A model generated the notes under the pieces. The model was given only the letters and a program-made list of their open reading frames with translations. It ran no database searches and was not told where the DNA came from. The position numbers were made by a program, and so were the translations under genes. DNA of 64,000 nucleotides from assembly GCF_000828055.2 (NCBI RefSeq), contig NZ_CP010523.2:62001-126000 (forward strand). The letters are read 5' to 3'. This stretch comes from Klebsiella variicola (GTDB taxonomy: Bacteria > Pseudomonadota > Gammaproteobacteria > Enterobacterales > Enterobacteriaceae). Of this stretch, positions 3,724 through 63,336 are shown one piece after another (within the stretch, counting starts at the first letter, position 1; each line of letters starts with the position of its first letter).

Positions 3724-4634
3724 GCGGCCCCGGCGATGCGCAGCAGTGCCTGACGCAGCGCCGGCGCGGCAAAATCGATAAATTTCCGCAGCTTAAGCGG
3801 CGCCAGATCCCGCGCGGTATACAGCAAATGGACCGGCGCCGGATCCGGCTCGACGTTTTCCAGCAGCAGACGGAGCTCCCCGTGGCGCAGGCCATCCAGC
3901 GCCTGATAGTGCAGTAAGCGGGCCACCCCCACCCCCAGCCGCGCGGCATCGGCGGCGCTCTCTGGCGTGGTGACGGATAGCACCGGCGGCAGGTTAATCA
4001 GCTGGTCCTCGCGCTCAGCGGCGCGAAAGCGCCAGCCGCGATAGGGCATCGGCGATTCAATGCGGATGATCGGCAACGCCGCCAGATCGCGCGGCCGCTG
4101 CGGCTCGCCGTATTTCGCCAGCAGCGCCGGATGGGCGCAGGCCACAATCCGCATGGTGCCGAGGCGGGTGGCCACCATGCTGCTGTCCGCCAGGTCGCCA
4201 ATCCGCACCGCCAGATCGACATGGTCGCTCACCAGGTCGGCATTGCGATCGCTGAGCAGCAAACGGACGCGAATTTGCGGGTAGCGGGCGATAAATTCAC
4301 TGATTACCGGAAGAACGTGCTGGCGTCCAAACATCGTTGGCGCGGAGATCACCAGCTCGCCTTTTGGCTCCTGATATTCGCCCGTCGCCTGGCGTTCGGC
4401 GTTTTCCACCTCCTCAAGGATCCGCCGGGCGGCAGCGACATAATCGACCCCGGCGTCGGTGAGCGTCAGTTTGCGGGTGGTTCGCGCCAGCAGGCGCACG
4501 CCCAGCGCGCTCTCCAGTTCACCAATATGGCGGCTGACGGTGGTCAACGGCATATTCAGCGCCCGCGCCGCCGCCGACATGCTCCCCAGCTCGGTCACTT
4601 TCACCAGCAGCGCCATCGCGCTTAATCGATCCAT
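3720..4634 (-). CDS. LysR-type transcriptional regulator
   Basis: A 304-residue regulator starting MDRLSAMALLV. Residues 1-60 carry the winged helix-turn-helix (GSMSAAARALNMPLTTVSRH). The rest is a periplasmic-binding-protein-like effector domain (GELVISAPTMFGRQHVLPV onward). A longer frame exists upstream, but the family's N-terminus fits the ATG at 4634. It is divergent, by 95 bp, from the pair at 4730 and 5359, so it probably controls that operon. The effector is unknown. The 3' end overlaps the efflux gene by 4 bp. Confidence 0.9.
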   Translation of the reverse strand: MDRLSAMALLVKVTELGSMSAAARALNMPLTTVSRHIGELESALGVRLLARTTRKLTLTDAGVDYVAAARRILEEVENAERQATGEYQEPKGELVISAPTMFGRQHVLPVISEFIARYPQIRVRLLLSDRNADLVSDHVDLAVRIGDLADSSMVATRLGTMRIVACAHPALLAKYGEPQRPRDLAALPIIRIESPMPYRGWRFRAAEREDQLINLPPVLSVTTPESAADAARLGVGVARLLHYQALDGLRHGELRLLLENVEPDPAPVHLLYTARDLAPLKLRKFIDFAAPALRQALLRIAGAA

Positions 4635-4729
4635 TATTCTCCCGTTTTTCGGAAAGATGATTGCCACTTTACCCGTATTATCATTCTTCACAGTACAGTC
4701 CATGATGGCGCCAGACAACAGGAGGCGCT

Positions 4730-5359
4730 ATGGCAGCAACCTTTCTCGATATCGCCATCACCCCGGACGTGATGGATGTGCAGCATGAAATGGGCAGCGA
4801 CTCGCTGTGGCAAACGCCGCACAGTCGCCGCCAGGCCGACCGCTTCGGCGACAGCGAAGCGGGGATGATCGCCACCCGCGACAGCTTTTATCTGGCGACG
4901 GTGTCGCAGAGCGGCTGGCCCTACATTCAGCATCGCGGCGGCCCGCCGGGGTTTCTGCATCTGCTGGATGACACTACCCTGGCGATGGCCGATTTCGGCG
5001 GTAACCGCCAGTACATCACTACCGGCAATCTGCGCGGCAGCGACCGGGCCTGCCTGTTTTTGATGGATTATCCGCGCCGTGCCAGGCTGAAAATCTACGC
5101 CACCGTCGAGGTCCTGGCGGCAGAGGACCATCCGCAGCTGCTGGCGCAGGTGGCGCCGGCCAACTATCGCGCCCGCATTGAACGTCTGTTTCTTTTTCAT
5201 TTGCAGGCGTTTGACTGGAACTGCCCGCAGCACATTACGCCGCGCTACAGCGCGCAGCAGGTGGCGGAGTACAGCCAGAACCTGCAGCAACGTATTCATG
5301 ACCTGGAGCAGGAGAATCAGCGCCTGCAGCAGCAATTAGCCTCAAAAGGAGACTCCTGA
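4730..5359 (+). CDS. Pyridoxamine 5'-phosphate oxidase-like flavin-binding protein
   Basis: A 209-residue cytoplasmic protein of the split-barrel FMN-binding fold. [26 protein letters not shown] is the typical first strands of this family, followed by [16 protein letters not shown]-like core strands. The last 30 residues ([21 protein letters not shown]) form a short coiled coil, which suggests oligomerisation. The family includes flavin oxidases and heme or F420 binders, so the reaction cannot be assigned. It shares one base with the following NTF2-fold gene and is divergent from a LysR regulator. Confidence 0.8.
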
Positions 5360-5829
5360 TGAATGAGCAACGTCCCCCGTTACCGCCGTTTACCCGCGAC
5401 AGCGCTATCCAGAAGGTCCGCGCCGCGGAAGATGGCTGGAACAGTCGCGATGCCGAAAAAGTCGCTCTGGCCTACACCGTGGACAGCGAATGGCGCAACC
5501 GCAGCGAATTTGTCCACGGCAGGGGGCAAATTGTGGAGTTCCTGCAGCGAAAATGGCGCAAGGAGCAGCAATACCGGCTGATTAAGGAGCTGTGGGCATG
5601 GCAGGAGAATCGCATTGCCGTGCGCTTCGCCTATGAGTGGTGCGACGACAGCGGCAACTGGTTTCGCTCGTATGGCAATGAGAACTGGGAGTTTGATAAG
5701 CACGGACTGATGCAGACGCGCTACGCCTGCATCAACGACCTGCCAATTAGCGAAAGCGAGCGCCTGTTCCACTGGCCCCAGGGGCGCCGCCCGGACGATC
5801 ATCCGGGGCTCAGCGATCTGGGGCTGTAA
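5359..5829 (+). CDS. NTF2-like (DUF1348, SnoaL-type) protein
   Basis: A 156-residue small alpha-beta barrel protein rich in Trp and Arg. The core [20 protein letters not shown]...W and the tail [21 protein letters not shown] are characteristic of the DUF1348 group. Related folds act as isomerases or binding proteins for hydrophobic metabolites, but no reaction can be assigned. Its ATG overlaps the stop of the preceding gene (TGATG), so the two are translationally coupled. The AGGAGA ribosome binding site sits inside the upstream gene. Confidence 0.8.
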
Positions 5830-5849
5830 AACCGGCGCGGCGCAACGGA

Positions 5850-6386
5850 TTAATCGGCTTTCGGGAAGTCGACCACCGTGTCGTTAACCCGGTTCACCAT
5901 GTTGGTGAACAGGATGGCGCTGATGGCGCTGATAATCTCAATCACCTGCTGGTCGCTAAAACCGGCGTTGCGCAGCGCGGCGACGTCGGCTTCCGGCAGC
6001 GTACCGGTGGTGGTCACCAGGGTCTGCGCGAATTTCACCAGCGCATCAAGCTGCGCCTCTTCCGCATACTCCCCGCGGCGCAGGGCGTGGATTTGTTCGC
6101 TGCTGAAGCCGGCTTTTTTCGCCATCAGGGTATGCGCGGCCAGACAGTAGTCACAGCCGGTGGCTTCGCTGACCGACAGGTTAATCGCTTCCAGCTGTTG
6201 GGCGCTGAGGCTGCCTTTATGGAGCATCGCATTGTGCGCCAGCGCCTGCTGCAGCGCCGCCGGCGAGTGGCCGCCGATGGTGAGATAGGCGTTCGGCACT
6301 TTGCCCATCGCTTTTTTGATCCCGGCGAAAATATCGGCGGCTTTGCCGGTGGCGTCTTGTTCACGGATATCTGCTAAACGGCTCAT
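5850..6386 (-). CDS. AhpD-like carboxymuconolactone decarboxylase family protein
   Basis: A 178-residue, mostly helical protein. The AhpD-type redox motif is present as CDYC...H (Cys78, Cys81, His85) after SVSEATG, matching the peroxidase-related subgroup rather than true carboxymuconolactone decarboxylases. It should act as a thiol-based peroxide or disulphide reductase in the cytoplasm. The gene stands alone, convergent with the DUF1348 gene and divergent from the AraC regulator at 6503, which may control it. Confidence 0.85.
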   Translation of the reverse strand: MSRLADIREQDATGKAADIFAGIKKAMGKVPNAYLTIGGHSPAALQQALAHNAMLHKGSLSAQQLEAINLSVSEATGCDYCLAAHTLMAKKAGFSSEQIHALRRGEYAEEAQLDALVKFAQTLVTTTGTLPEADVAALRNAGFSDQQVIEIISAISAILFTNMVNRVNDTVVDFPKAD

Positions 6387-6502
6387 GGTTAACTCCTGTT
6401 GTTATCGAGGGTGTGTTGGCAATGGGGTCATCTTAGGCGCTTGCCGCATGCTAGACTGGCGGTCTTCGTCTCACCTTTTTGTCTTATCGTCTCAGGAGAA
6501 GC

Positions 6503-7408
6503 ATGGACAGTCTCAGTCATCTGCTGGCGCTGCTGGCGCCGCGCTGCGAAGTGAACCTGCACTGTCGCTTCGGCGGCCGCTGGCAGGCCGGGCACCAGCA
6601 AATGCGCAGCGGCGTGGTGCCCTGGCACGTGGTGCTGCGCGGCGAGGGGCGGCTCAACGTCGGCGGCCAGACTCATCACCTGCGCGCGGGAGATGTGGTC
6701 CTCCTGCCGTACGGTTCGCCGCATCTGATGGAGAGCCTGGTGGAGTGGGGCCAGGTGCTGCCGGTAGCGCACCGGTTTAACGGCACGGTGACGGAAATGC
6801 GCGTCGGCCCGGCGGAGGGGGCGCTGGAGATGCTGTGCGGCGAATTCTATTTTGGTCCGCACGTCAGCTGGCTGTTCAGTGAAGCATCGACGCTGATCCA
6901 TCTCCATACCGATGCGCGTGAAGACTGCCAGGAGCTGGACGCGCTGCTTAATATACTGGTGCGCGAGAGCCTGGCGCAGCGTCCCGGCGGCAGCGCTATC
7001 GTGCGCAGCCTCGGCGATACGCTGCTGGTGCTCCTGCTGCGCATGCTGCTTGGTGAGCAACAGCCGCCCGGTGGACTGCTGCGTCTGATGAGCGATGAAC
7101 GCCTGATGCCGGCGGTGCTGGCGGTGATGGCGACCCCGGAGCAGCCGTGGACGCTGGAAACCATGGCCGCCCGTGCCTTTCTTTCGCGGGCCACCTTTGC
7201 CCGTCATTTTGCCCGCGTTTATCACCTGACGCCGCAGGCGTGGCTGTCGCAGCTGCGAATGGCGCTGGCCGCCCGGCTGCTGCGCCTGGAGCGTCAGACC
7301 AACCTCGAGGTCATTGCCGAACGCTGCGGCTTTCAGTCGCTGGCGTCCTTCTCGAAGCGCTTCAAAATGCGCTATGGCGTGACGCCGGGCGAGTGGCGAC
7401 GGGGCTAG
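6503..7408 (+). CDS. AraC-family regulator with N-terminal cupin domain
   Basis: A 301-residue regulator. Residues 1-170 form a cupin-like sensor (AGDVVLLPYGSPHLM). Residues 200-300 carry the two helix-turn-helix motifs of AraC proteins (ETMAARAFLSRATFARHFAR and IAERCGFQSLASFSKRFK). An in-frame TTG lies 24 bases upstream, but the ATG at 6503 has an ideal CAGGAGAAG site. It is divergent from the AhpD-like gene at 5850, the usual layout for an AraC activator and its target. The effector is unknown. Confidence 0.9.
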   Translation: MDSLSHLLALLAPRCEVNLHCRFGGRWQAGHQQMRSGVVPWHVVLRGEGRLNVGGQTHHLRAGDVVLLPYGSPHLMESLVEWGQVLPVAHRFNGTVTEMRVGPAEGALEMLCGEFYFGPHVSWLFSEASTLIHLHTDAREDCQELDALLNILVRESLAQRPGGSAIVRSLGDTLLVLLLRMLLGEQQPPGGLLRLMSDERLMPAVLAVMATPEQPWTLETMAARAFLSRATFARHFARVYHLTPQAWLSQLRMALAARLLRLERQTNLEVIAERCGFQSLASFSKRFKMRYGVTPGEWRRG

Positions 7409-7535
7409 CGCCTCGCGTTTCGCGAAGATGATTTTATTTCCAGTTGCGTGGTTTGCTGTTTATTACCCGACCCGAAAGTCGCTATAGTTTTGCACGAAAA
7501 AAACAATGACAGTCAGGACAGACAGGGTGAAGAGG

Positions 7536-8345
7536 ATGAGATTACGTTTACGGGCCGCCGCCGCAGTGATGCTGGCGGGTCTGGCGCTGGTCGGCTGCGA
7601 CCAAAAGGGTAATGAAGCGAAGCACATTAAGGTCGGCGTGATTAACGGCGCCGAGCAGGATGTGGCGGAAGTGGCGAAGAAGGTGGCCAAAGAGAAGTAC
7701 GGTCTGGACGTCGAACTGGTGGGATTCAGCGGCTCGCTGCTGCCTAACGAATCGACCAACGCCGGCGATCTGGACGCCAACGTCTTCCAGCATCGGCCTT
7801 TCCTTGAGCAGGACAATAAAGCGCATAACTATCATCTGGTGGCGATCGGCAATACCTTCGTCTTCCCGATGGCCGGCTATTCGCGCAAGATCAAGTCAGT
7901 CGCCGAACTGCAAGACGGCGCGACGATCGCCATCCCCAACGACCCGACCAATCTCGGGCGGGCGCTGCTGCTGCTGCAAAAAGAGAAGTTGATTACCCTC
8001 AAAGCCGGGACCGGCCTGCTGCCGACGGCGGTGGATATCACCGACAACCCGCGTAACCTGAAAATTATGGAGCTGGAAGGGGCGCAACTGCCGCGCGTAC
8101 TCGACGATCCCAAAGTCGATGTGGCCATCATCAGCACCACCTACCTGCAGCAAACCGGGCTGTCGCCGGTTCGTGACGGCATCTTTATCGAAGATAAAAA
8201 CTCGCCCTACGTGAACATCATCGTGACCCGGGAAGACAATAAAGACGCGGAAAACGTGAAGGAGTTTATGCAGTCGTACCAGTCGCCGGAGGTGGCGAAG
8301 GCGGCAGAGACTATCTTCAACGGCGGCGCGGTGCCGGGCTGGTAA
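7536..8345 (+). CDS. nlpA: Lipoprotein NlpA (MetQ-family substrate-binding protein)
   Basis: A 270-residue lipoprotein closely matching E. coli NlpA over its full length (AKHIKVGVINGAEQDVAEVA...IFNGGAVPGW). The signal peptide ends in LVGC with Cys21 as the lipidated residue. Asp22 follows, the +2 signal that keeps lipoproteins in the inner membrane. The fold is that of the methionine-binding protein MetQ. NlpA can act as an accessory binding protein for the MetNI importer, whose genes are not nearby. The start at 7536 gives a signal peptide of the expected length and has an AGGG site. An ATG 30 bases upstream lacks one. A plausible promoter is TTATTA-N17-TATAGT just upstream. Confidence 0.93.
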   Translation: MRLRLRAAAAVMLAGLALVGCDQKGNEAKHIKVGVINGAEQDVAEVAKKVAKEKYGLDVELVGFSGSLLPNESTNAGDLDANVFQHRPFLEQDNKAHNYHLVAIGNTFVFPMAGYSRKIKSVAELQDGATIAIPNDPTNLGRALLLLQKEKLITLKAGTGLLPTAVDITDNPRNLKIMELEGAQLPRVLDDPKVDVAIISTTYLQQTGLSPVRDGIFIEDKNSPYVNIIVTREDNKDAENVKEFMQSYQSPEVAKAAETIFNGGAVPGW

Positions 8346-8369
8346 GCCTACACACAGGGAGAGGCGCGT

Positions 8370-9224
8370 ATGGTACGCCAACGGCAGGCTGACCTGCTGC
8401 TGATTGCCGCGACGGTGATTGCCGCCTGCGGCTGGATTTTTTCCCGCGAGGCGATCGCCGGCATGCCGGTATTCGCGTTCCTTGGGCTGCGCTTTTTCTT
8501 CGCCGCGCTGCTTCTGCTGCCGTTCTGCCGCGGTTTTCGCCCGCAAAAGCAGCACTGGCCCAAACTCATCATCAGCGGACTCTGGTTTGCGCTCAACCTC
8601 TGCCTGTGGATCTATTCGGTCTCCACGACGGCGTCGCTCGGCGAAGGGGCGTTTATCATGAGCCTGTCGATGATGTTCGTCCCGCTAACCGCGTGGGTGA
8701 TGATGAAGGTGCGCCCGCCTCGCGCCTGGTGGGAGTGCCTGCCGATCGCGGTGGTAGGCCTGGGGCTGCTCAGTCTGCATATGCCGATAGCCTTCCACCC
8801 CAGCCAGGGCTGGTTTTTGCTGACGGCGCTGGTGCAGTCGATCTGGTTCTGTTACACCAGCCGCTGCGCGCGTGAAGTACCGCTGATCCCCCTGACCACC
8901 GTGCAGCTGGCGATCACCGGTATCGTCGGGTTGACCATCTCCGCTGCCGTTGAACGCTGGGACCAGCCGATGACCCTGCCGACTCTCGGCTGGCTGGTGG
9001 CCAGCATTGTCATCGCCACCAGCCTGCGCTTCGGTCTGCAGATGAAGGGGCAGAAGTACGCGGCGGTGGCCAGCGCCGCGATCATCATGGTGCTCGAACC
9101 GCTGCTGACGGTCATTGCCGCCGCGCTGTGGTACGGCGAACAGCTGCCGTTACAGAAGATTATCGGCGGCGTGCTGATCCTGGTGGCCCAGCTGTGGTTC
9201 CGCTGGCGGATGCTTAAGCCGTAA
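8370..9224 (+). CDS. DMT-superfamily permease (EamA family)
   Basis: A 284-residue inner-membrane protein with about ten hydrophobic helices arranged as two EamA repeats. The second repeat ends with the typical AAVASAAIIMVLEPLLTVIA segment and a short basic tail. It should be a metabolite or drug exporter, but the substrate cannot be read. It starts 24 bp after nlpA on the same strand and may be cotranscribed. It occupies the place of yicL in E. coli but is a different protein. The C-terminus overlaps the convergent Nudix gene by 11 bp. Confidence 0.85.
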   Translation: MVRQRQADLLLIAATVIAACGWIFSREAIAGMPVFAFLGLRFFFAALLLLPFCRGFRPQKQHWPKLIISGLWFALNLCLWIYSVSTTASLGEGAFIMSLSMMFVPLTAWVMMKVRPPRAWWECLPIAVVGLGLLSLHMPIAFHPSQGWFLLTALVQSIWFCYTSRCAREVPLIPLTTVQLAITGIVGLTISAAVERWDQPMTLPTLGWLVASIVIATSLRFGLQMKGQKYAAVASAAIIMVLEPLLTVIAAALWYGEQLPLQKIIGGVLILVAQLWFRWRMLKP

Positions 9225-15909: not shown

Positions 15910-15929
15910 TGGCGGAAGATCACAGGAGT
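15910..15929. other. Distal attachment site of the selC island
   Basis: A 20-bp copy of the selC 3' end (TGGCGGAAGATCACAGGAGT), identical to 24093-24112, lies 8.2 kb from the tRNA gene and marks the far boundary of the island. To its left is ordinary GC-rich chromosome; to its right AT-rich island DNA begins. Confidence 0.85.
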
Positions 15930-16066
15930 GGTTTTTGATGTGTAATTTATTGTATTTATTGATCATTATTGATTGGTGATTTATTTTTAATACGTATCTC
16001 TATACATATTTGCTTGACTGACAAGCTATCTATAGATAAAGCACCAGTGACCGAACTCATCTAAAA

Positions 16067-16168
16067 GACTTTTTTTGGAAAAAACTGTTCACACTGTTCA
16101 CTACGCATTTATGTCTAGTATTCATATGTTTATGTGGTTAATAGTTGGTGAACACTTTACTGTTCACC
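16067..16168. repeat. crr-like iteron repeat, left copy
   Basis: About 100 bp containing four copies of the P4-type iteron: TGTTCAC at 16086-16092 and 16095-16101, GGTGAACA at 16147-16154, and TGTTCACC at 16161-16168. The stretch TTATGTGGTTAATA followed by the iterons recurs in direct orientation at 18716-18817. In P4, the alpha protein binds such iterons in the origin and in crr, and crr is described as two direct repeats of about 120 bp. Confidence 0.7.
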
Positions 16169-16477
16169 TTCACAGGCTATAGGTACAAGCGCTATAGTCT
16201 GCTGTGAGCGAAAGCGGTAATTATCATATTTATTAGTTTATCTATCTACGACAGATGAGCCTTCGTGATCGAGATGCTAAGTTGCAGAAGATACCATGAG
16301 TTTCAACTTGCATTTATCACAAAATATTGGGATAGTTACTTTACTGTTCGAGTGCCAGTTTTGTTTAAAAGTGTTGCTTTCAATAATCTGTTTTCATTAT
16401 ATATTTTCACTTTATCGATAATATATTCTTAAACGATCCTCGACCAAAAGACTAAACATATATCGACAAGGCATATT

Positions 16478-17395
16478 ATGTCAGAAATCATCTCAACCTC
16501 TGCGGTTACAGTAGCATTGATATCTACAGGCACCACTATTGCTTTATTTATAGTTAAAGGAATTTGTACACCTTTTTGGAATAAATACTTTCTCAAATAC
16601 AAGATTAAAGTTGAGCACGACTATGAGCAAAAAAAGAAAATAAAAGAAGCAATTTCTAAGCATAAAATGCCCTTGCTTGACTCTGCTGAATCACTGAACC
16701 ACAGATTATGGAACTTCTCAGGTAATTGTATAAAAGGGTGGCACAACTTTAGCGATACTGATATTCTAAATGACAAATATTATCTACAATCTTTCTGCTA
16801 TCGCTTTTTAGCTTTTTATGCATGGTGTATCAAGTTCGAAAGAGAATTAATATATCTTGATGTTACCTTATCAGAAAAAAACGATTTATTTTTTGTTAAG
16901 TATATAAAAACGATGCAGAATGTATTCTGTGATGCGTCAATGTTGAACGGCACAGGTTATGACAATGAACAGGCAACTGATCATTTTTTCAAGGATGAAC
17001 TTATTAGCATGGTTGAGAATATGTATTCTGAGACAGGTGTTATTACCTTTCTGGAATTTAAGGAAAATAAAAACATGAATTATGAAGGGGTTCGCATTTA
17101 CATTTCTAAAATAATGAATGACAAATCATGTAATAAATGGCAGTTAGTCAACTGCTTTCATTACATCTTAATGGCTTTTTTGTCAAAGTATGGATATGAC
17201 TATCAAAAAACCGGATTATTCAAACTATTTAAACTACATCGTGCTGAGCCAAAAAATAAACTGATAAATAACTTCAAGTTATTAGTTTCTAATGCAAAAT
17301 TAAATAAGTGCAATGAGATAAAAAAAACGATAGCCATTCTAGAATGTAAATCCATCAGAGCAAATGTATGTAGCATATTGAAACTAATAAAATAA
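16478..17395 (+). CDS. Uncharacterised membrane-anchored protein, first gene of a cargo pair
   Basis: A 305-residue AT-rich gene that I do not recognise. Residues 8-30 form one hydrophobic helix (VTVALISTGTTIALFIVKGI). A basic, charged stretch (YEQKKKIKEAISKHK) follows, then a mostly helical cytoplasmic domain rich in Lys, Asn, Tyr and Phe. The layout, one N-terminal anchor plus a soluble domain, is common in membrane effectors of phage defence, but there is no known motif. It is followed after 91 bp by the PIN-like nuclease gene on the same strand. An AAGG site precedes the ATG. The pair sits at the distal end of a P4-like island, where satellites keep defence cargo. Role in defence is inference. 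Confidence 0.75.
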   Translation: MSEIISTSAVTVALISTGTTIALFIVKGICTPFWNKYFLKYKIKVEHDYEQKKKIKEAISKHKMPLLDSAESLNHRLWNFSGNCIKGWHNFSDTDILNDKYYLQSFCYRFLAFYAWCIKFERELIYLDVTLSEKNDLFFVKYIKTMQNVFCDASMLNGTGYDNEQATDHFFKDELISMVENMYSETGVITFLEFKENKNMNYEGVRIYISKIMNDKSCNKWQLVNCFHYILMAFLSKYGYDYQKTGLFKLFKLHRAEPKNKLINNFKLLVSNAKLNKCNEIKKTIAILECKSIRANVCSILKLIK

Positions 17396-17486
17396 GAAAG
17401 TATTATCGCTCAACTGAGAACGTATGCCCTGTAATTATTGAAGTCAAAGTATGCACCACTGAATTATTCGTAAGGATAATGACTAC

Positions 17487-18488
17487 ATGAGCTATCTCAT
17501 CTATTTAGACCAGAATACATTAAGCAATTTACGCCAACGAAAAATTGACGAAATGAAACTTGATGAGTACATAAAGATAAAAGCCGCTTTAAAATCATCC
17601 GAAATTATTACTGTTTATTCTTACGTAACACTTCAAGAAATATCTCAAATAAAAAATGATGAGTATAAAAAAGAACATATTGAACTATTGGCTGAACTCG
17701 ATGCAGCATACATCGAACCAAAATCTAACCAATTAACCGATATTGTTCCTGAAAAAATCTGGAAATCTTTTTTGCAAATTCAAAAAGAAAATTCCGAGTT
17801 GGGTATTGATTCAATAATTACTTCTGCAGAATTATTTTCGAGGAAAATATCAGGAATTAATGTGAGCGAAAGCTTTGATGATATAAATAATCAAGTCAAT
17901 GAAAGCTTAAATAATATGTTTGAGTGTGCCGGGAAACAATTAGACTCTATTGATGTGTTGACTTTGCCAAATGAACTACAACAAACAATTATTGATTTGC
18001 ATAGTAATTTCAAGAAGTTACTAGCAAACTCTTTACAGATTACACCCCCACTTGTTGCTTGTAATCAGCAGTTAGGTCCGATCCCTTTCCGCCAACTGCC
18101 CAAGATCAAAAGCTTAGATATTCTAAATGCAGATGTAAAAGATGTTGTTAATCTTATAGAGACTGCATTCCAAACTGAAAATAGCACCTTTAATCTAAAT
18201 GATTATTTTGAGAAAACGCCACAGTCTGATAGTGCACGTGCTTATTGTTTAATGAATTGGGCCGGATATTACTCTGATGATTTTACTAAGGTCACAGAGA
18301 AAAAGGACCGTTTTAAATCTTCGCATAACGACATGCAACATGTCGTTGCAGCCATTGGAGCAAACTTCTTAATTTCAGACGACGCAAGATTTTGCAGAAA
18401 AGCACAAGCATGTTATGCGTACATTGGAATATCTACAATAGTGTGTAGCGCAAAATATTTCATTGAAAATTATTGCAGATTTGATTGA
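17487..18488 (+). CDS. PIN-like nuclease domain protein, second gene of the cargo pair
   Basis: A 333-residue protein that appears to be a PIN-fold nuclease with a large insertion. The acidic residues expected of a PIN active site are in the right order: Asp8 in IYLDQN, Glu51 in VTLQEIS, Asp282 in HNDMQHVVAA, and Asp298/Asp299 in LISDDARF. The central 200 residues are helical and unrelated to anything I know. PIN domains cut RNA and serve as toxins or defence effectors. No small antitoxin gene adjoins it; its partner is the membrane protein upstream. The codon use is AT-rich, unlike the chromosome. The family assignment is by motif reading only. Confidence 0.7.
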   Translation: MSYLIYLDQNTLSNLRQRKIDEMKLDEYIKIKAALKSSEIITVYSYVTLQEISQIKNDEYKKEHIELLAELDAAYIEPKSNQLTDIVPEKIWKSFLQIQKENSELGIDSIITSAELFSRKISGINVSESFDDINNQVNESLNNMFECAGKQLDSIDVLTLPNELQQTIIDLHSNFKKLLANSLQITPPLVACNQQLGPIPFRQLPKIKSLDILNADVKDVVNLIETAFQTENSTFNLNDYFEKTPQSDSARAYCLMNWAGYYSDDFTKVTEKKDRFKSSHNDMQHVVAAIGANFLISDDARFCRKAQACYAYIGISTIVCSAKYFIENYCRFD

Positions 18489-18715
18489 CGTTAGGTCATA
18501 AAAACACGTTCTACTATTACGTTGTCAGACTGAAGCAACTGCAACTTAGAGTGAGAACAGTCAAGAACCCTCGTTGGTGGTAATCGCGGACCGGCAACTT
18601 TTGACAACCCACTCTCATTATAAACTGACTGATCTGTTCTTGGTCGATTAACACATTGTGATGTCAGCAAGGTTCGCTCCTGGTACTGAACGGTCTGATA
18701 ACTTTTGAGGGTAAA

Positions 18716-18817
18716 AAGTTTTTCCTGGGAAAACTGTTTGCTCGGTATTTTTATTGTTTATTTTCATGATGTTATGTGGTTAATACTCGGTGAACAGTGA
18801 ACACTTTACTGTTCACT
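18716..18817. repeat. crr-like iteron repeat, right copy
   Basis: A direct repeat of 16067-16168. It shares TTATGTGGTTAATA and the iterons GGTGAACA (18789-18796), AGTGAACA (18796-18803) and TGTTCACT (18810-18817). It lies immediately downstream of the alpha gene, as crr does in P4. The two copies now enclose 2.5 kb with the cargo pair rather than the short spacer described for P4. Confidence 0.7.
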
Positions 18818-18833
18818 CTGCCCGGTGTGCAGG

Positions 18834-18859
18834 TAAAAAAAGACCGGCAATGCCGGTCC
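18834..18859 (-). terminator. Rho-independent terminator of the alpha remnant
   Basis: On the minus strand the hairpin GACCGGCATTGCCGGTC is followed by seven T residues, directly after the stop of the alpha remnant at 18867. Confidence 0.8.
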
Positions 18860-18866
18860 GGGTAGG

Positions 18867-19856
18867 TTATGTTGCGGTGGGTTCATCGCACTTCGGCAGC
18901 CAGTCGGCGTTTCTTTCCTCCCTGAGGGCGAGATTGGTTTGCATACCCTGATTTGTGCGGCGTTTCTCATAATTCAGACCGTACTCTTTCAGCATGGCTG
19001 AGAGCCCCTTGCCGAACATGGTCAGGCTGAGCGCATTCCTGTAGCCGTGGGCCTCCATATACACCAGATAGGCGTGATACAGATACAGACGCGGCTGGCG
19101 CGGGATAATGTTCGCGTTCCCCATATACATCCCGTCGGGCTCCGGCAGTGCCTCCAGATAGCCGCAACAATCAAATGTCGGGTCAGCGTCGCGCTTGATG
19201 CTCAGCGCCTCGTCGGAGTTCTGCTGCGACTGGAGCAGGGCGCGGGCACTCATCGGGTTGCTGAACTGCTGCATTAACTGGCGCACAATCACGGCCAGCT
19301 CGCGGGCGATTTTATCCCTGAGCTGCGGGTCGCGCTCCTCCGGGGCTATCTGCTCCGGGAAGTGGATGATTACCCGTCGGCGTGACACGCCGCCGCTGCG
19401 GTCGGTGAAGCGCATCGGGTTATTGTTGACCGCCAGAATCACCGCCGGAATATGCGTCGAGTAGGGATTCTGGTATTTCGGGTCAACGGAGACCGCATCG
19501 CCACCGGTGATGGCCTTGAGTCCGGCACCGTCACCGCTCCATTTCTCCTGGTCAGGCAGACGAATAAGCGAGAAGCCAATCAGGGAGGCACGCTTGCGGG
19601 GGTCTTCCAGCGTGTCGATATCGGCTGACGTCGCGTTATCCTCTCCGGCCAGCATCGTGGCAATTTCGGCGAGAATACTTTTCCCGCTGCCGCCCGGCCC
19701 GGTCACTTCGAGAAAGAGCTGCCTGTCGTAGCGGTTCGCCAGCACCATAAACAGCGCGGCCAGGATCACGTCGCGTTTTGTCGGGTTGCCACTGGCCGCC
19801 CGGTCGAGTCAGCGCCAGAAGTTAGGCGCATGGGTTTCCAGCGTTTCCCTGTAAGC
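18867..19856 (-). pseudogene. P4 alpha replication protein, truncated 3' remnant
   Basis: The C-terminal third of the P4-type alpha protein (primase-helicase that also binds origin iterons). The helicase P-loop GPGGSGKS and the following KRASLIGFSLIRLPDQEKW segment are intact, and the reading continues to LPKCDEPTAT. The normal protein is about 780 residues; only about 330 codons remain. Codon TGA at 19809-19811 (minus strand) replaces an expected TGG in HAPNFWRWLDR, so the remnant also carries a nonsense mutation. Upstream, the gene is cut off by an IS3-family fragment near 19856. An internal ATG at 19769 leaves a 300-codon open frame that might still be translated, but autonomous replication is lost. 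Confidence 0.85.
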
Positions 19857-20450
19857 ACACCCGTTTTAGTTCCACGCATTTTTTGAGATTTCCGGGGTTT
19901 CAGCCATCAGTCGGTACTCTTCCGGTGTCAGGTTATTCAGGGATTCGTGGGGGCGCTCGCCGTTATATTCAGCCAGCCAGCGCTCTGTAATTTCCCGTGC
20001 TTCATTCAGTGTTCTGAACAGATAAAAATCCAGTATTTCTGTTCTGTATGTCCGGTTGAACCGTTCGATAAAGGCATTCTGCGTTGGCTTGCCGGGCCTG
20101 ATAAACTCCAGCATCACACCATGCTCTTTTCAATGCGCGGCACTCGAGACTCAGGTCCGCAAACATCTGTTTCAATCGGCGGTTTTCATCTTCGAGGTCC
20201 TTCATCTTTTTGATATCAGAGGCATCCATACCGCCGAACTTCGCTTTCCAGTTGTAGTACGAGGCCTCAGAAATCCCGGCTTCGCGGCACACATCTTTGA
20301 CGGTGCGTCCGGCTTCGACGGACTTCAGAACGGCAATGATCTGGTGTTCGGTGAATCGGGCTTTGCGCATGGCGATCTCCTCCAGGAGCATAATCAGTTA
20401 TGCAGGAAGATCTCTAAATGTGAATGGTCCGCTTTACCGGGATGCTTACA
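19850..20450 (-). mobile_element. Internally deleted IS3-family element (about 600 bp)
   Basis: The fragment contains an intact-looking orfA start fused to the last 85 codons of orfB. Short inverted repeats TGTAAGCA (19850-19857) and TGCTTACA (20443-20450) may be its ends, although the left one overlaps sequence that also reads as alpha. I see no target duplication. It separates the alpha remnant from the rest of the island. Confidence 0.65.
19866..20391 (-). pseudogene. IS3-family transposase orfA-orfB deletion derivative
   Basis: OrfA reads from about 20373 (MRKARFTEHQIIAVL, then the helix-turn-helix TVKDVCREAGISEASYYNWK and the leucine-rich LEDENRRLKQMFADLSLE). Just after ECRALK the sequence jumps to the end of orfB (GVMLEFIRPGKPTQNAFIER...TPEEYRLMAETPE). 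About 600 bases, including most of the DDE catalytic domain, are missing; only the last part with the terminal Glu region remains. The junction lies at a GAAAA/GAGCAT boundary. The normal orfA -1 frameshift product cannot form, so no active transposase is made. Confidence 0.85.
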
Positions 20451-21006
20451 AAAGCACTGCGCGCCAGCGGTAAAGTATTTATTTAATGATATTTAATTTG
20501 ACTGCCTGAGCGCGTCGCTGCGCTGCGCGGGTTCGCGGGAGTGTCGGTGGATGGTGCGTTGCTGTTCGAGGGCGTGGCGAGCCTCTGAGGCTGTCAGGTG
20601 AGGGATAAGAAAGCACAACACAGCGGATGAGGGAAATCAGTTATTTCGACGTTGATATTGTTGCCTCTTAAAGCACTTATCTCCTGTCCATGCATTCATC
20701 TGATGCATTCAGGCCTGTTGCAGCTTGAGCCACGCCATGCGCTTACATGAAAACAGACTCACGAAGCGTGCAGACGAGGAGGGAAAAACATTGCGTGCTG
20801 GTCATACATCTACTAACTTTGGGTTAAATTAAGTCACAGGGTCAATGAAAGCATTGTGAGACACAGATACACTATGATTACTGCAATTGTGAGTTAATCA
20901 ATCGGGATTAGCATTATTTTTTTTTGTGTAATATAAAATCTCGGTAAATTTACTCTGAAAGTACGTGAAGAAAATAATTATAACTCTATTCTTAGGAGGG
21001 CATATT
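20451..21006. other. Gap without genes inside the island
   Basis: No supported coding region. The left half is moderately GC-rich and looks like scrambled satellite remnants. The right half becomes very AT-rich and must contain the promoter of the HEPN gene. I see no clear repeat or RNA gene. Confidence 0.4.
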
Positions 21007-21645
21007 GTGTTGATTCCTGATGATTTGGACGAGGACGTTTATCCAGATTGTTGCTGGAGCTATATAGGTAAAAAGGATTATTTGAAACCTAATACATACT
21101 TACAAGATGCGATTGATGATTTGAATTCAGGAAGTGAGCGCCGAAATCTGAATAATGCCGTGCGAAATGCAAAATCGGCATTGCATATGAGAGTGGATAT
21201 TCTTTGTCGAGCTTTTTGTGGTGATGACTACTTCCAGAAAAATCTAAAGAACTTTCCAAAAAAGATGGATTTCCTAGAAGGAATTGGAATAGTCAGACCT
21301 AGAATAATAGATAAAATAAATAAAATAAGAAATGAAATTGAGCACGAGTATCGAGATGCAACTCTTGAGGAAGCAGAAGATTTCATAGATATAGTTTTAT
21401 TGTTTATGGAGGCAACTAGATATCTAAATTCAAGGTTTCCATGTGAAGCTGACTTCTATGTTTTGGCAGTTTCTAATGAAGTTTATTTAAGGAAGATAGT
21501 ATGTAATTGGGAAGGTGGGGAATTAATCTTTTACTATTCAAAGCAAGAGTCACACCGACTTGATAACGTGGAAACTTACTCAATAAAAGTAGGTGATTAT
21601 AGATATGCTCTGTGGGTAAAATTCATTCTAGATCATTGCGATTGA
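21007..21645 (+). CDS. HEPN-type protein, probable RNase or defence/toxin component
   Basis: A 212-residue AT-rich gene. I choose the GTG at 21007 because it has a perfect AGGAGG site 7 bases upstream; a longer frame starts with GTG at 20965. An N-terminal acidic segment is followed by paired helices (NLNNAVRNAKSALHMRVDIL and IIDKINKIRNEIEHEY). The RNEIEH sequence fits the Rx4-6H catalytic signature of HEPN RNases (Arg108, His113). The C-terminal 80 residues form a probable beta-rich domain of unknown role. HEPN proteins act as RNases in toxin-antitoxin and abortive-infection systems. No minimal nucleotidyltransferase partner is adjacent; the convergent neighbour is a ParA-like ATPase. Confidence 0.65.
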   Translation: MLIPDDLDEDVYPDCCWSYIGKKDYLKPNTYLQDAIDDLNSGSERRNLNNAVRNAKSALHMRVDILCRAFCGDDYFQKNLKNFPKKMDFLEGIGIVRPRIIDKINKIRNEIEHEYRDATLEEAEDFIDIVLLFMEATRYLNSRFPCEADFYVLAVSNEVYLRKIVCNWEGGELIFYYSKQESHRLDNVETYSIKVGDYRYALWVKFILDHCD

Positions 21646-21717
21646 TATGCTATTTATCCAAATTCACTAAATGAAATATTTTAGACCGAGCTAAAAGTAG
21701 CCTCGGTCTAAGTATTG

Positions 21718-22743
21718 TCAATTTGCCAACGTAGCAACTGAGCGAGCTAACTCGCTAAAATTATTTTTGAACTCTTCTCTGTTTTCTTTCATTGTATCCA
21801 GTATTACTCCATTTTGCTCTATTTGCGCATCTGATAGGGCAAATACCGGGGTGCTATGTTTTTGAGATTGAGCAATTAGTGAGTTAAAATCTGAAATATT
21901 CGCCAAATTAAAAGGCTCTTTTGTCGGACAGGCATTTTCAAAATCAGCAACTGAAATTGACATGTTGATAGGATTTAAAGCTGGTATTAATGTATTAGTG
22001 ACTTCATCTTTGATGATATCAATCCATCTTTGAAAAGATTTTACTGGTAAATTGTTCCTTGGACGATACTTCTGAGATATAAACCCGATGAATTTCGGAG
22101 GTTCAATAGGGAATGGATATAGTATTTTGCTATCTCTAAAACTATTTATCTCGCTGTTCCATCTGGGAAGAACTTGCGCGAGTGACTTTATTGCCTGAGC
22201 ACAGAAGAAATCTGGAGATGTAGGAACTATAAAATAGTCACTGCACATTAAGAGACATTCATTCAATGCACCAACGCTGGGGCTCATGTCAACAAGGACA
22301 TAATCAAATTCATGTTTCCGTGCTGTCTCACGCAAAAAAGCCCCTATACTGCCGGGGATATTTCTAATTGCGGGGATAGCAGCGCTGGTTGTTAGCGCAA
22401 CTCCAATCTGCGTTTCAATTTCTGATAAATAGATGCTACCACACAATAAACTTAAATTTGGATTTGTTGTGTCTAATGGGTCGGATGGTATAACTTTTCC
22501 TAAAGAACCATCTACAACAGGTTTGATGCAACTATAAATATCACAGTTCGGATTGTTTTTATAGATTTTATCAAAGTCATCAGTGGTCGAATAGCCCAAC
22601 GCTAAGGCTGTCAAATTACATTGTGGATCAGCATCAACTATTAAAACTTTATAGCCGAGATTAGCTAGCATCCACCCCATGTTAAAAGTCGTAGTTGTCT
22701 TGCTAACACCACCTTTATGATTAAATAAAGATATTATTTTCAT
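21718..22743 (-). CDS. ParA-family ATPase (island-borne)
   Basis: A 341-residue MinD/ParA-type ATPase. The deviant Walker A motif is HKGGVSKTT (residues 8-16), with Ser where most ParA proteins have Gly. The signature lysine at the motif's start is kept. Walker A' DADPQCN and a Walker B-like YVLVDMSPS follow. The C-terminal part (about residues 200-341) is longer than in minimal ParA. It lies 22 bp downstream of the broken integrase on the same strand. There is no ParB gene or obvious centromere repeats nearby, so it may be an orphan, an element-maintenance protein or part of a defence module. Function beyond ATP-dependent dimerisation is not readable. Confidence 0.82.
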   Translation of the reverse strand: MKIISLFNHKGGVSKTTTTFNMGWMLANLGYKVLIVDADPQCNLTALALGYSTTDDFDKIYKNNPNCDIYSCIKPVVDGSLGKVIPSDPLDTTNPNLSLLCGSIYLSEIETQIGVALTTSAAIPAIRNIPGSIGAFLRETARKHEFDYVLVDMSPSVGALNECLLMCSDYFIVPTSPDFFCAQAIKSLAQVLPRWNSEINSFRDSKILYPFPIEPPKFIGFISQKYRPRNNLPVKSFQRWIDIIKDEVTNTLIPALNPINMSISVADFENACPTKEPFNLANISDFNSLIAQSQKHSTPVFALSDAQIEQNGVILDTMKENREEFKNNFSELARSVATLAN

Positions 22744-22765
22744 TCTAATTCCTTAATGGAAATTA

Positions 22766-23930
22766 TTACTTTAAAAGATAGCTGCTATACCACTGAAGCA
22801 TTTCCCTTCTTCTTTCAAGGTATTGAGCATGGTTATATGTTCCTCGAATACTATTTTTATCCACATGCGCGAGTTGCATTTCAATCCATGCACTATCAAA
22901 TCCCTGTTCATGTAGTATAGTCGACATTGTGTGTCTAAATCCGTGACCTGTTGCACGTCCTTTATAACCAAGTCGCTCAATGACTTGTGTCACACTTTCT
23001 TTGCAAATTGGCTTACTGCGGTTATTCCTGCCGATAAAAATGTAAGTATAATTACTGGTAATAGGCTTTAGCTGCTTAAAGAGTTCAATCACTTGAGTAG
23101 ATAAAGGGACAATGTGAGGCCTACGCATTTTCATCCGTTCTGCTGGCATTTCCCAAATTGCCTTTTCTAAATCAATTTCATCCCACGTAGCAAAGCGCAT
23201 TTCCTGCGTTCTTACACCAGTAAGCATAACTATTTTAGTGGCATTTTTGGTGATGATGCTGCCGGTATAGGCTTCAAGATCTCTGATAAAATGAGGTAAT
23301 TCTTCGGCAGATAAAAAAGATGGTGCTTTTGCTTCGGCACGGCCAATGCGATAGCTAAATCAGGGGCAGGGTTGTATTCAGCTCGGCCAGTTATGATCGC
23401 GTAGCGAAAAACCTCTCCGCACCGCTGGCGTACCTTGCGTGTTTTCTCCAGTGCTCCACGTTTCTCTATTCGTCGCAGCACTTCAAGCAATTCTAAAGGT
23501 TTGATCTCACCGATAGGACGTTTGCCGATGAACGGGAAAACATCTTGTTCGAAGGTCTTAATGATTTCGTCTCGGTATGCCACTGTCCAGCGGTCGGCTT
23601 TGTTTGCATGCCATTCGCGGCTTATGGCTTCGAATGAGTTTTCTGTTGAAAGCTGCTGTGCCAGTTTTTCGCTTTCCGTTCCTCAACCGGATCAATGCCA
23701 TTAGCAACTTGCTTGCGGGCGACCTCGCGCTTTTCACGAGCTTCAGCGAGGCTTATCAAGTCGTAGCTGCCAAATGACATTAACCGCGCTTTTCCAGCAA
23801 GGCGAAAACGGAACCGCCAGCCCTTCGAATCATCGGGATTGATAAGCAATGACATGCCTTGTCCATCGTTCATTGTGTAGGGTTTGTCTTGAGGCTTTGC
23901 TCGTTTGATTTGTATGTCTGTCAGTGCAAT
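22766..23930 (-). pseudogene. P4-type tyrosine integrase, frameshifted
   Basis: A selC-specific P4-family integrase in pieces. N-terminal part: [20 protein letters not shown] and GWRFRFRLAGKARLMSFG. Middle: VAYRDEIIKTFEQDVFPFIG. C-terminal part: catalytic residues in VMLTGVRTQEMRF, HGFRHTMST and QLAHVD. Two single-base losses break the frame, one in an A run near 23672 and one in a T run near 23312. The expected ATG at 23928-23930 reads ATT. The catalytic Arg, His-x-x-Arg and final Tyr (GTYNHAQYL) remain in the 3' fragment, but no full enzyme can be made without frameshifting. The gene begins about 160 bp from selC, as usual for this family. Confidence 0.88.
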
Positions 23931-24092
23931 GTGTATAAGTCAAAAATGTGTATAAAAAATCTATACGCATCACAATACATATTTATCTTGGATTCAGTGA
24001 GAACTTGGCGGATGGTTACGGATGAGTTATTTACTTTGTATATTGAAAATAAATGGATTTTTATGCGTTCTTGGATAGCGGCGGAGCAATTT

Positions 24093-24112
24093 TGGCGGAA
24101 GATCACAGGAGT
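24093..24112. other. Attachment site at the selC 3' end
   Basis: The 20 bases that cover the CCA end, the acceptor strand and part of the T arm of selC recur exactly at 15910-15929. The break lies in the T arm, the usual crossover region of P4-family integrases. Confidence 0.85.
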
Positions 24113-24187
24113 TGAACCTGCCCGGGACCGCTGGCGGCCCCAACTGGATTTGAAGTCCAGCCACCTCACCGGAGATGACGATCTTCC
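24093..24187 (-). tRNA. selC: tRNA-Sec (selenocysteine), anticodon TCA
   Basis: A 95-nt gene nearly identical to E. coli selC. It has the long variable arm, the 8-bp acceptor stem GGAAGATC/GATCTTCC, anticodon TCA in GGACTTCAAATCC, and encoded CCA. It inserts selenocysteine at UGA codons of formate dehydrogenases. The T loop reads TTCAACT. Its last 20 bases (24093-24112) double as the attachment site of the island to its left, and integration kept the tRNA intact. Confidence 0.97.
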
Positions 24188-61635: not shown

Positions 61636-63336
61636 ATGAACGCTATCTTTGACAGAGTCATTAGAGAGTTTTTCCCGGATACCAATATTCCACACTGGAA
61701 AAAATGGGTTTTCAGAGCCGCATTTGGCAATAAGATATTCTCTCGTTTAATAAACGACGAACGGTTAATTGATAAAAATGGTGTGCATTGGGTTAGTTCG
61801 GTCGTTGATTTTTTTAACGTCCGATGTGAAACGGAATGCTCTGACTTTAATAATATACCCCGACAGGGTGCTACAGTTGTTATTTCAAATCATCCGACGG
61901 TAATGGATGGTATTGCTTTAATACATACTATCGCTCAGGTCAGGAAAGATATAAAAATAGTGGCTAACCATATTTTGCCAATGATATTCCCACAGGTGGC
62001 AGAACTTACCATTGGTATTGAGAATATGGCTGGTAAGATGAGCCATAAGAAATTCAGGGAAATGAACGATCACCTGAAGAACGGTGGTGTGTTGATTATT
62101 TGTCCTGCAGGTAAGTTGGCTAGCTGGTCTCTTTCAGGTTTACAGGAACATCAATGGAATCCCGGTTTTTTACAGCTGGCGATGAGAAACAACGCGGCGC
62201 TGGTACCTGTTCATATTACGGGATCAAACAGCAAAACTTATTATTTAGCTGCGACGGTCTGGCGGCAACTGTCAAATATAATGATTATTCGTGAAGCGCT
62301 ACGCCATCGTGGTAAGACCATGAAAATCAAAGTAGGGCAGCAAATAGCCTTATCCTCGTTTAATCGATTTAATAAAGATCTGTCTGCCGCGTCAAGTGTA
62401 TGCTTGATGCATCTCCAGAGCATCGGAGAGAATGGCCCGGCGCTGGTAGATACGGTTTCTCCGCAACAATTAACAGGTAGTCGAGAGAGTTTAATAAACG
62501 CAATAGAAGAGTGCGAAGTATTAAGACAATTTGATGATGGTAGAAAATTATTGATATTTCGCTGCAATACCCTCGGAGACTCACCCATTATTGATGAGCT
62601 AGGGCGCTTACGCGAGCGCTGTTATCGCGATATTGGCGCCGGATCCGGTAAAGACAGAGATAATGATGTTTTTGATGAAACCTATTACCATGTCATTTTA
62701 TGGGATCCTTCTGATGAAGAAATACTGGGTGCCTATCGTCTAATACCCGTTGGTGAGCAGTTAGCGCAACATGGAATAACAGGCCTCTATAGCAACAGCC
62801 TGTTCAAGTACCATAATAATGCCTATTCCTGTTTAAGCCAGTGTGTGGAAATCGGCCGTGGATTTATCCAGAAGCCTTATCAAAAAAGTAATGTTCTTGA
62901 TTATTTATGGCGCGGGATATTTGATTTTATAAAAAGATATCCAGACTATAAATATTTGTTAGGTGTGTTGACGATTCCCGGCTCTTTTCCTGAAGAGGTA
63001 CAGAAACTCATTGTAAGCTTTTATAATATGTACTTTCCCAGTTCGGTTAACTTTTGTACGCCAATTCAATTATTCACTGCAGAAGGTGCACAAAGTGATA
63101 GCCCATTTTCCGGAAATGATTTTAGAGACGACTGGCGTGTGCTTAACGATTTACTGAGAGAAAAAGGTTATGAACTACCATGGCCTTTTAAACAGAGCGC
63201 TAAATGGTTTTCTCCAGGCGGGTCGTCGATTCTTGCATTCACAAAAGATGATGCTTTTCACTCGATCGCTGGTTTAAACCTGAGTGCTCTCGATAAATTG
63301 AATGAAATATACTTTAAGCATTATTTAAAGGATTAA
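61636..63336 (+). CDS. Fused two-domain acyltransferase, OlsF-like (ornithine/amino-acid lipid synthase)
   Basis: A 566-residue protein. The N-terminal half is a PlsC-type acyltransferase: catalytic NHPTVMD (His86, Asp91) and PAGKLASWS (157-165), then VPVHITGSN. The C-terminal half (about 290-566) resembles the N-acyltransferase (OlsB-like) fold: ELGRLRERCYRDIGA, ILGAYRLIPVGEQ, CVEIGRGFIQ, then YLLGVLTIPG. The order, O-acyltransferase first and N-acyltransferase second, is that of OlsF, described in Serratia, which makes ornithine lipids. The gene is AT-rich and has an AAAGGA ribosome binding site. The next gene, 86 bp later, encodes an HlyD-type lipoprotein. The amino-acid substrate is not determined. 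Confidence 0.75.
   Translation: MNAIFDRVIREFFPDTNIPHWKKWVFRAAFGNKIFSRLINDERLIDKNGVHWVSSVVDFFNVRCETECSDFNNIPRQGATVVISNHPTVMDGIALIHTIAQVRKDIKIVANHILPMIFPQVAELTIGIENMAGKMSHKKFREMNDHLKNGGVLIICPAGKLASWSLSGLQEHQWNPGFLQLAMRNNAALVPVHITGSNSKTYYLAATVWRQLSNIMIIREALRHRGKTMKIKVGQQIALSSFNRFNKDLSAASSVCLMHLQSIGENGPALVDTVSPQQLTGSRESLINAIEECEVLRQFDDGRKLLIFRCNTLGDSPIIDELGRLRERCYRDIGAGSGKDRDNDVFDETYYHVILWDPSDEEILGAYRLIPVGEQLAQHGITGLYSNSLFKYHNNAYSCLSQCVEIGRGFIQKPYQKSNVLDYLWRGIFDFIKRYPDYKYLLGVLTIPGSFPEEVQKLIVSFYNMYFPSSVNFCTPIQLFTAEGAQSDSPFSGNDFRDDWRVLNDLLREKGYELPWPFKQSAKWFSPGGSSILAFTKDDAFHSIAGLNLSALDKLNEIYFKHYLKD

Follow-up and report, generated by a model that had tools for sequence, protein, structure and literature searches.

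Two cargo genes at the edge of an island at selC

The 64,000-nucleotide stretch of DNA analysed here (hereafter the window; positions 62,001–126,000 of Klebsiella variicola contig NZ_CP010523.2) carries a low-GC island at the tRNA-SeC gene selC, and at one edge of this island lie two genes: a 305-amino acid (aa) open reading frame (ORF; P0001, 16478–17395, plus strand) and a 333-aa ORF (P0002, 17487–18488, plus strand). An original prediction, made from the sequence of the window, described them as a membrane protein and a PIN-like nuclease that together form the anti-phage cargo of a P4-like satellite. Our results single out the nuclease as the gene to examine alone, and correct a pair reading under which both genes would be treated as one system.

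The layout itself was described correctly: the ORF list places the genes 91 bp apart on the same strand, and both are AT-rich (GC contents of 33.4% and 30.0% in kilobases 16001–18000, the region of the cargo genes). They also adjoin the distal attachment site, as had been claimed. An exact 20-bp att-like repeat marks both ends of the island (15910–24112); its distal copy (15910–15929, plus strand) is identical to the 3' end of tRNA-SeC (repeat at 24093–24112, plus strand; the tRNA gene itself, 24093–24187, is on the minus strand). Between the repeats, GC content per kilobase is 30–47%, save for one kilobase at 60% that contains a helicase remnant; the flanking kilobases are mostly 53–65% GC.

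A predicted split PIN-type nuclease

PIN proteins carry out metal-dependent RNA cleavage at an acidic site. Elucidation of the predicted structure of P0002 agrees with the assignment of a PIN fold: the AlphaFold2 (AF2) model has a predicted local distance difference test score (pLDDT) of 84.1 and a predicted template modelling score (pTM) of 0.82, and PIN domains head the rows of the fold comparison, with Z up to 10.7. Alignment of P0002 with 16 relatives (17 sequences in total) reveals ten invariant residues: Y6, D8, N10, S45, E51, G123, G260, D282, H285 and D299. Asp8, Glu51 and Asp282 had all been named as PIN acidic residues; the fourth, given as Asp298/299, can be placed at the invariant Asp299, whereas Asp298 is unconserved. 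In a 20-row alignment D8 and E51 become nearly invariant, because one row (L026) is cut short. D8 and E51 align with the D and E of VapC. The insertion proposed to split the domain is also present, but is smaller than the 200 residues first estimated: it is mostly helical and covers about 170 residues in the model (about residues 88–259; 17748–18263, plus strand), the spacing between E51 and D282 being 230 residues. The model and alignment thus support a predicted PIN fold with a large insertion and four conserved acidic residues (D, E, D, D).

Searches of Pfam, PADLOC, NCBIfam and PHROGs gave no accepted match to P0002, and the 17 family members have none in Pfam or PADLOC 2023. Over the library searches as a whole, weak matches to SEN1_N, DUF2120, Cyclase, DUF4404 (one member), NFACT-C and Bcl-2 (one member), and a PHROG match at E 0.0035, were judged to be due to chance, and a comparison with the PIN_12 profile was negative. 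The outcome is an uncatalogued split-PIN family, linked to P2 and P4 cargo sites, with an alignment that shows an invariant active site. Elsewhere, the window's own genome carries two further PIN genes, one of PIN_12 type (G000:C1:3116682-3117185) and one of VapC type (G000:C1:5443317-5443637).

The family is sparsely distributed. Besides the window's own genome, relatives occur in 7 of 394 genomes of an order-level sample (E up to 1e-5) and 3 of 369 of a class-level sample, while in a family-level sample of 392 genomes the nuclease was found in its own genome only (E up to 0.001). Eight viral contigs and two plasmids also carry relatives. Searches with the single P0002 sequence returned no match in plasmids, genome contigs or viral contigs; among phages they gave a short match at E 7 and a weak, full-length match at E 0.2 to a P2 record (two accessions), and it was the latter that led to the P2 relatives. 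Since identity between P0002 and the P2 group is low (about 20%), the unity of the family was tested without circularity, on 2384 ORFs from 92 sequences. A profile built from 11 rows outside the P2 group recovers that group (E 1e-47 to 3e-35), one built from the six P2-group rows alone recovers the window protein (E 4e-13), and one built from P0002, L029 and L030 recovers the P2-phage copies (E 8e-9 to 5e-6). The best match outside the family in these searches is at E 0.004. At the DNA level, a search of E. coli genomes with the nuclease gene of L030 gave no match.

The intactness of the two genes had been taken to suggest selection for the cargo. For the nuclease, comparison with its 77% relative L029 (dS 0.57, dN 0.135) gives a dN/dS of 0.24 (bootstrap 0.16–0.35), which speaks for purifying selection since the split from L029 but says little about the time spent inside the decayed island. 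No ratio could be obtained against L030, where dS is saturated.

Where do the relatives of P0002 reside? On six P2-like contigs (L030, L031, L033–L036), the nuclease gene lies between a gene of 757–785 aa and, on the opposite strand, one of 340–344 aa; this count covers the contigs whose ORFs were inspected, and leaves out L032, which has the same match position as L031. The flanking genes are taken for gpA and gpQ by their likeness to annotated E. coli copies. The L034-type gene is present in 4 of 5426 E. coli genomes, and two of these four copies were inspected; in both, the annotation has a replication endonuclease, then a hypothetical protein, then a phage portal protein. Among the other copies, those of L022 and L052 have type I restriction genes nearby (by eye) and that of L021 has a TIR gene nearby, while no neighbouring defence gene was recognised by eye beside those of L023, L025 and L051. 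Nuclease relatives are found as single genes at known sites where phages and islands carry anti-phage cargo. In L030, the slot (3759–9002) holds consecutive genes for an AAA_21 ATPase, an HNH protein, a PIN_12 protein and a split PIN, the first two of which we take to resemble Septu. According to the consulted portions of two published accounts, P2 itself carries old and tin between gpA and gpQ, and systems cloned from this slot conferred resistance (PMC9122126, PMC9519451). In the corresponding part of PMC9122126, which treats the cargo of both P2 gpA–gpQ and P4 psu–int, no PIN system is named.

A close known counterpart is DS-3 (DefensePredictor), as described in the available portion of PMC13092281: a one-protein system in which the PIN ribonuclease domain is split between the N and C terminus, in which changes to catalytic residues abolish defence, and for which there is no cognate antitoxin. 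Its authors suggest that it is auto-inhibited until infection. As far as this description goes, P0002 is similar in that it is a single protein with PIN halves at its two termini and no antitoxin gene. The two differ in that defence is demonstrated for DS-3 and conjectural for P0002, and in that P0002 is encoded within a P4-like satellite remnant, next to a gene for a membrane protein. Among the parts of PMC9122126, PMC9519451 and PMC13092281 consulted, a split PIN is described only in the last.

We conclude, with a probability of roughly 0.72, that P0002 is a stand-alone, split-PIN-type anti-phage gene like DS-3, carried as cargo by a decayed P4-like satellite. The basis for this is the predicted fold, the conserved active site, the mobility of the gene on its own, the relatives at P2 cargo positions and purifying selection; carriage as satellite cargo with a role in defence is made probable by the position of the gene and by its relatives in the gpA–gpQ slot. 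Because P0002 has the architecture of DS-3, we propose a self-gated PIN ribonuclease. The PIN halves (about residues 1–80 and 265–333) would fold together into one metal-dependent acidic site (D8, E51, D282 and D299), with the helical insertion between them. The insertion would most likely hold the nuclease off, or read a phage cue. On infection, the nuclease would be expected to cut RNA—probably tRNA or rRNA—and so may stop the phage from growing, a response that would be costly to the cell itself.

Two other roles for the nuclease were weighed. Firstly, it could be a VapC-like toxin of a toxin-antitoxin pair that stabilizes the island, in keeping with its VapC-type fold and active site, with carriage on mobile elements, and with relative L050, which stands in line with Xre-like and ImmA/IrrE-like (Peptidase_M78) genes (303–2536) in what is possibly a regulated operon. 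However, VapC toxins (PF01850) are contiguous proteins of about 130 aa that come with VapB, while P0002 is split and 333 aa long. No candidate VapB ORF of at least 60 aa exists in 17396–17486 or 18489–18866 (shorter ORFs were not examined), and by eye there is no constant small neighbour beside the relatives. We consider this reading improbable. Secondly, a PIN nuclease might have a housekeeping or element-internal role, such as RNA processing or helper-phage control, rather than one in broad defence. This also seems unlikely, given the patchy presence in the order- and class-level samples above and the finding of the gene at a defence slot whose cargo is interchangeable.

The membrane-protein gene as a probable separate passenger

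The original prediction named a lack of recurrent pairing in other genomes as grounds for its own refutation. A profile of each family was run over the ORFs of all collected loci, and on this count the pair reading fails: outside the window, none of 23 nuclease-family loci (L011, L021–L036, L050–L053, L090 and L091) and none of nine membrane-protein-family loci (L002–L005, L008, L009, L010, L048 and L049) carries the other gene. These loci are partly non-independent; L011, L033, L034, L090 and L091 represent one near-identical gene, as do L031/L032 and L035/L036, and a single E. coli type accounts for six of the nine membrane-protein loci. Some are incomplete: L026, L050 and L025 come from short contigs or from close to the end of a contig, only one side is covered for L009 and L010, and L048, which lies after a transposase, lacks its N-terminus.

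DNA homology likewise stops between the genes. The match of L029 to the window (82%) is confined to 17472–18550, or 17444–18550 with softer scoring, and that of the E. coli membrane gene to 16544–17392, or 16450–17392 with softer scoring. With homology broken off at this point, each gene looks like a cassette of its own. No evidence for promoters was obtained from promoter-like sites (9 observed, 13.4 in shuffles), and there is nothing special about RNA folding between the cargo genes or downstream. Right 3' of the nuclease gene lies an 86-base stretch (18609–18691) that is 73% like the reverse of L002 5830–5915, a segment upstream of the E. coli membrane-gene cassette; its predicted RNA fold is not beyond chance.

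These results bear on the possibility that the membrane protein and the nuclease form one two-gene defence system, with the former sensing or executing at the membrane. The genes share a strand, are closely spaced and are both open within a decayed island, and members of the membrane-protein family occur close to predicted nucleases of other kinds too (HEPN/Toprim in E. coli, HNH_2 in G306). Against this stand the absence of recurring pairing, the homology breaks, and the 77% nuclease relative L029, which has no membrane gene in 12.2 kb. In addition, orientation with respect to the adjacent nuclease is not constant: the genes share a strand in one case, diverge in another and converge in the third. 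With no recurring pairing and homology that stops between the genes, we dropped the two-gene system as the main reading and regard it as doubtful; P0001 appears to be a second passenger, separately acquired, rather than a partner of the nuclease.

P0001 has, as predicted, one N-terminal membrane helix: a single hydropathy peak spans residues 8–26, and the same is seen in three homologs examined. Its structure model (pLDDT 37) is unusable for fold. Searches with P0001 found no match in plasmids or phages, the family alignment confirmed nothing among genome contigs and reached only E 0.15 against PDB sequences, and a viral scan with the G306 relative gave no match. Comparison with L010 gives a dN of 0.158, with dS saturated and hence no ratio. 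One of eight family members matches RTasTM (PADLOC DRT), weakly (E 1e-4), but the window protein itself is unmatched and by eye no reverse transcriptase was recognised near its gene.

Two settings of its relatives are of interest. In E. coli, L002 and L004 share, within the 16.9 kb compared, only a 2.9 kb block (6114–9017, 99.76% identical) at two different sites; the block consists of a HEPN/Toprim gene and the membrane-protein relative, and is a candidate two-gene defence system in its own right. In G306, the relative comes after psu and Ogr/Delta in a P4-like satellite—a likeness to P4 psu–int cargo—and faces an HNH_2 gene. Because of these two neighbourhoods we retain, at long odds, a reading in which the membrane protein is a common module with interchangeable nucleases (PIN in the window, HEPN/Toprim in E. 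coli, HNH in G306), constituting a mix-and-match defence class.

The remainder of the island

Besides the two cargo genes, the island contains an integrase gene, a ParA-like ORF, a HEPN-like-looking ORF, an IS3-type remnant and a D5/P4-alpha-type helicase remnant. The claim that the satellite genes around the cargo are broken is correct for some of these. The integrase gene (22766–23873, minus strand) lies in three separate frames (22766–23227 and 23230–23583 by Pfam, 23622–23873 by eye), and the helicase (18867–19769, minus strand; Pox_D5, DUF5906) is down to 300 aa, with the IS3-type remnant (HTH_Tnp_1 match; family assigned by eye) beside it. Two further ORFs, 20965–21645 and 21718–22743, are still open. 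No psu, delta or sid was recognised in the island, and an Rfam scan gave tRNA-Sec as its sole match. The island is best labelled a P4-like satellite remnant at selC; it differs from P4 in the lack of recognised psu and delta, and in having the helicase remnant between the cargo and a cos-like stretch.

This stretch consists of two segments, 20710–20798 and 20451–20614, that match, in swapped order, the interval separating gpQ from the nuclease relative in P2-like phages, where we take cos to be located. Judging by this match, it may be a decayed cos-like site, beside the HEPN-like and ParA-like ORFs and away from the cargo pair. The ORF at 20965–21645 (plus strand, 226 aa) contains the stretch RNEIEHEY, which to us resembles a HEPN RNase motif, and matches DUF4145 at only E 0.05; from its sequence, it is a candidate for a second RNase cargo gene of the same island. 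Finally, direct repeats with GGTGAACA boxes lie on both sides of the two-gene cargo (16108–16167 and 18750–18809; also 16064–16089 and 18713–18738). These resemble P4 replication iterons, and may have played a role in cargo exchange.
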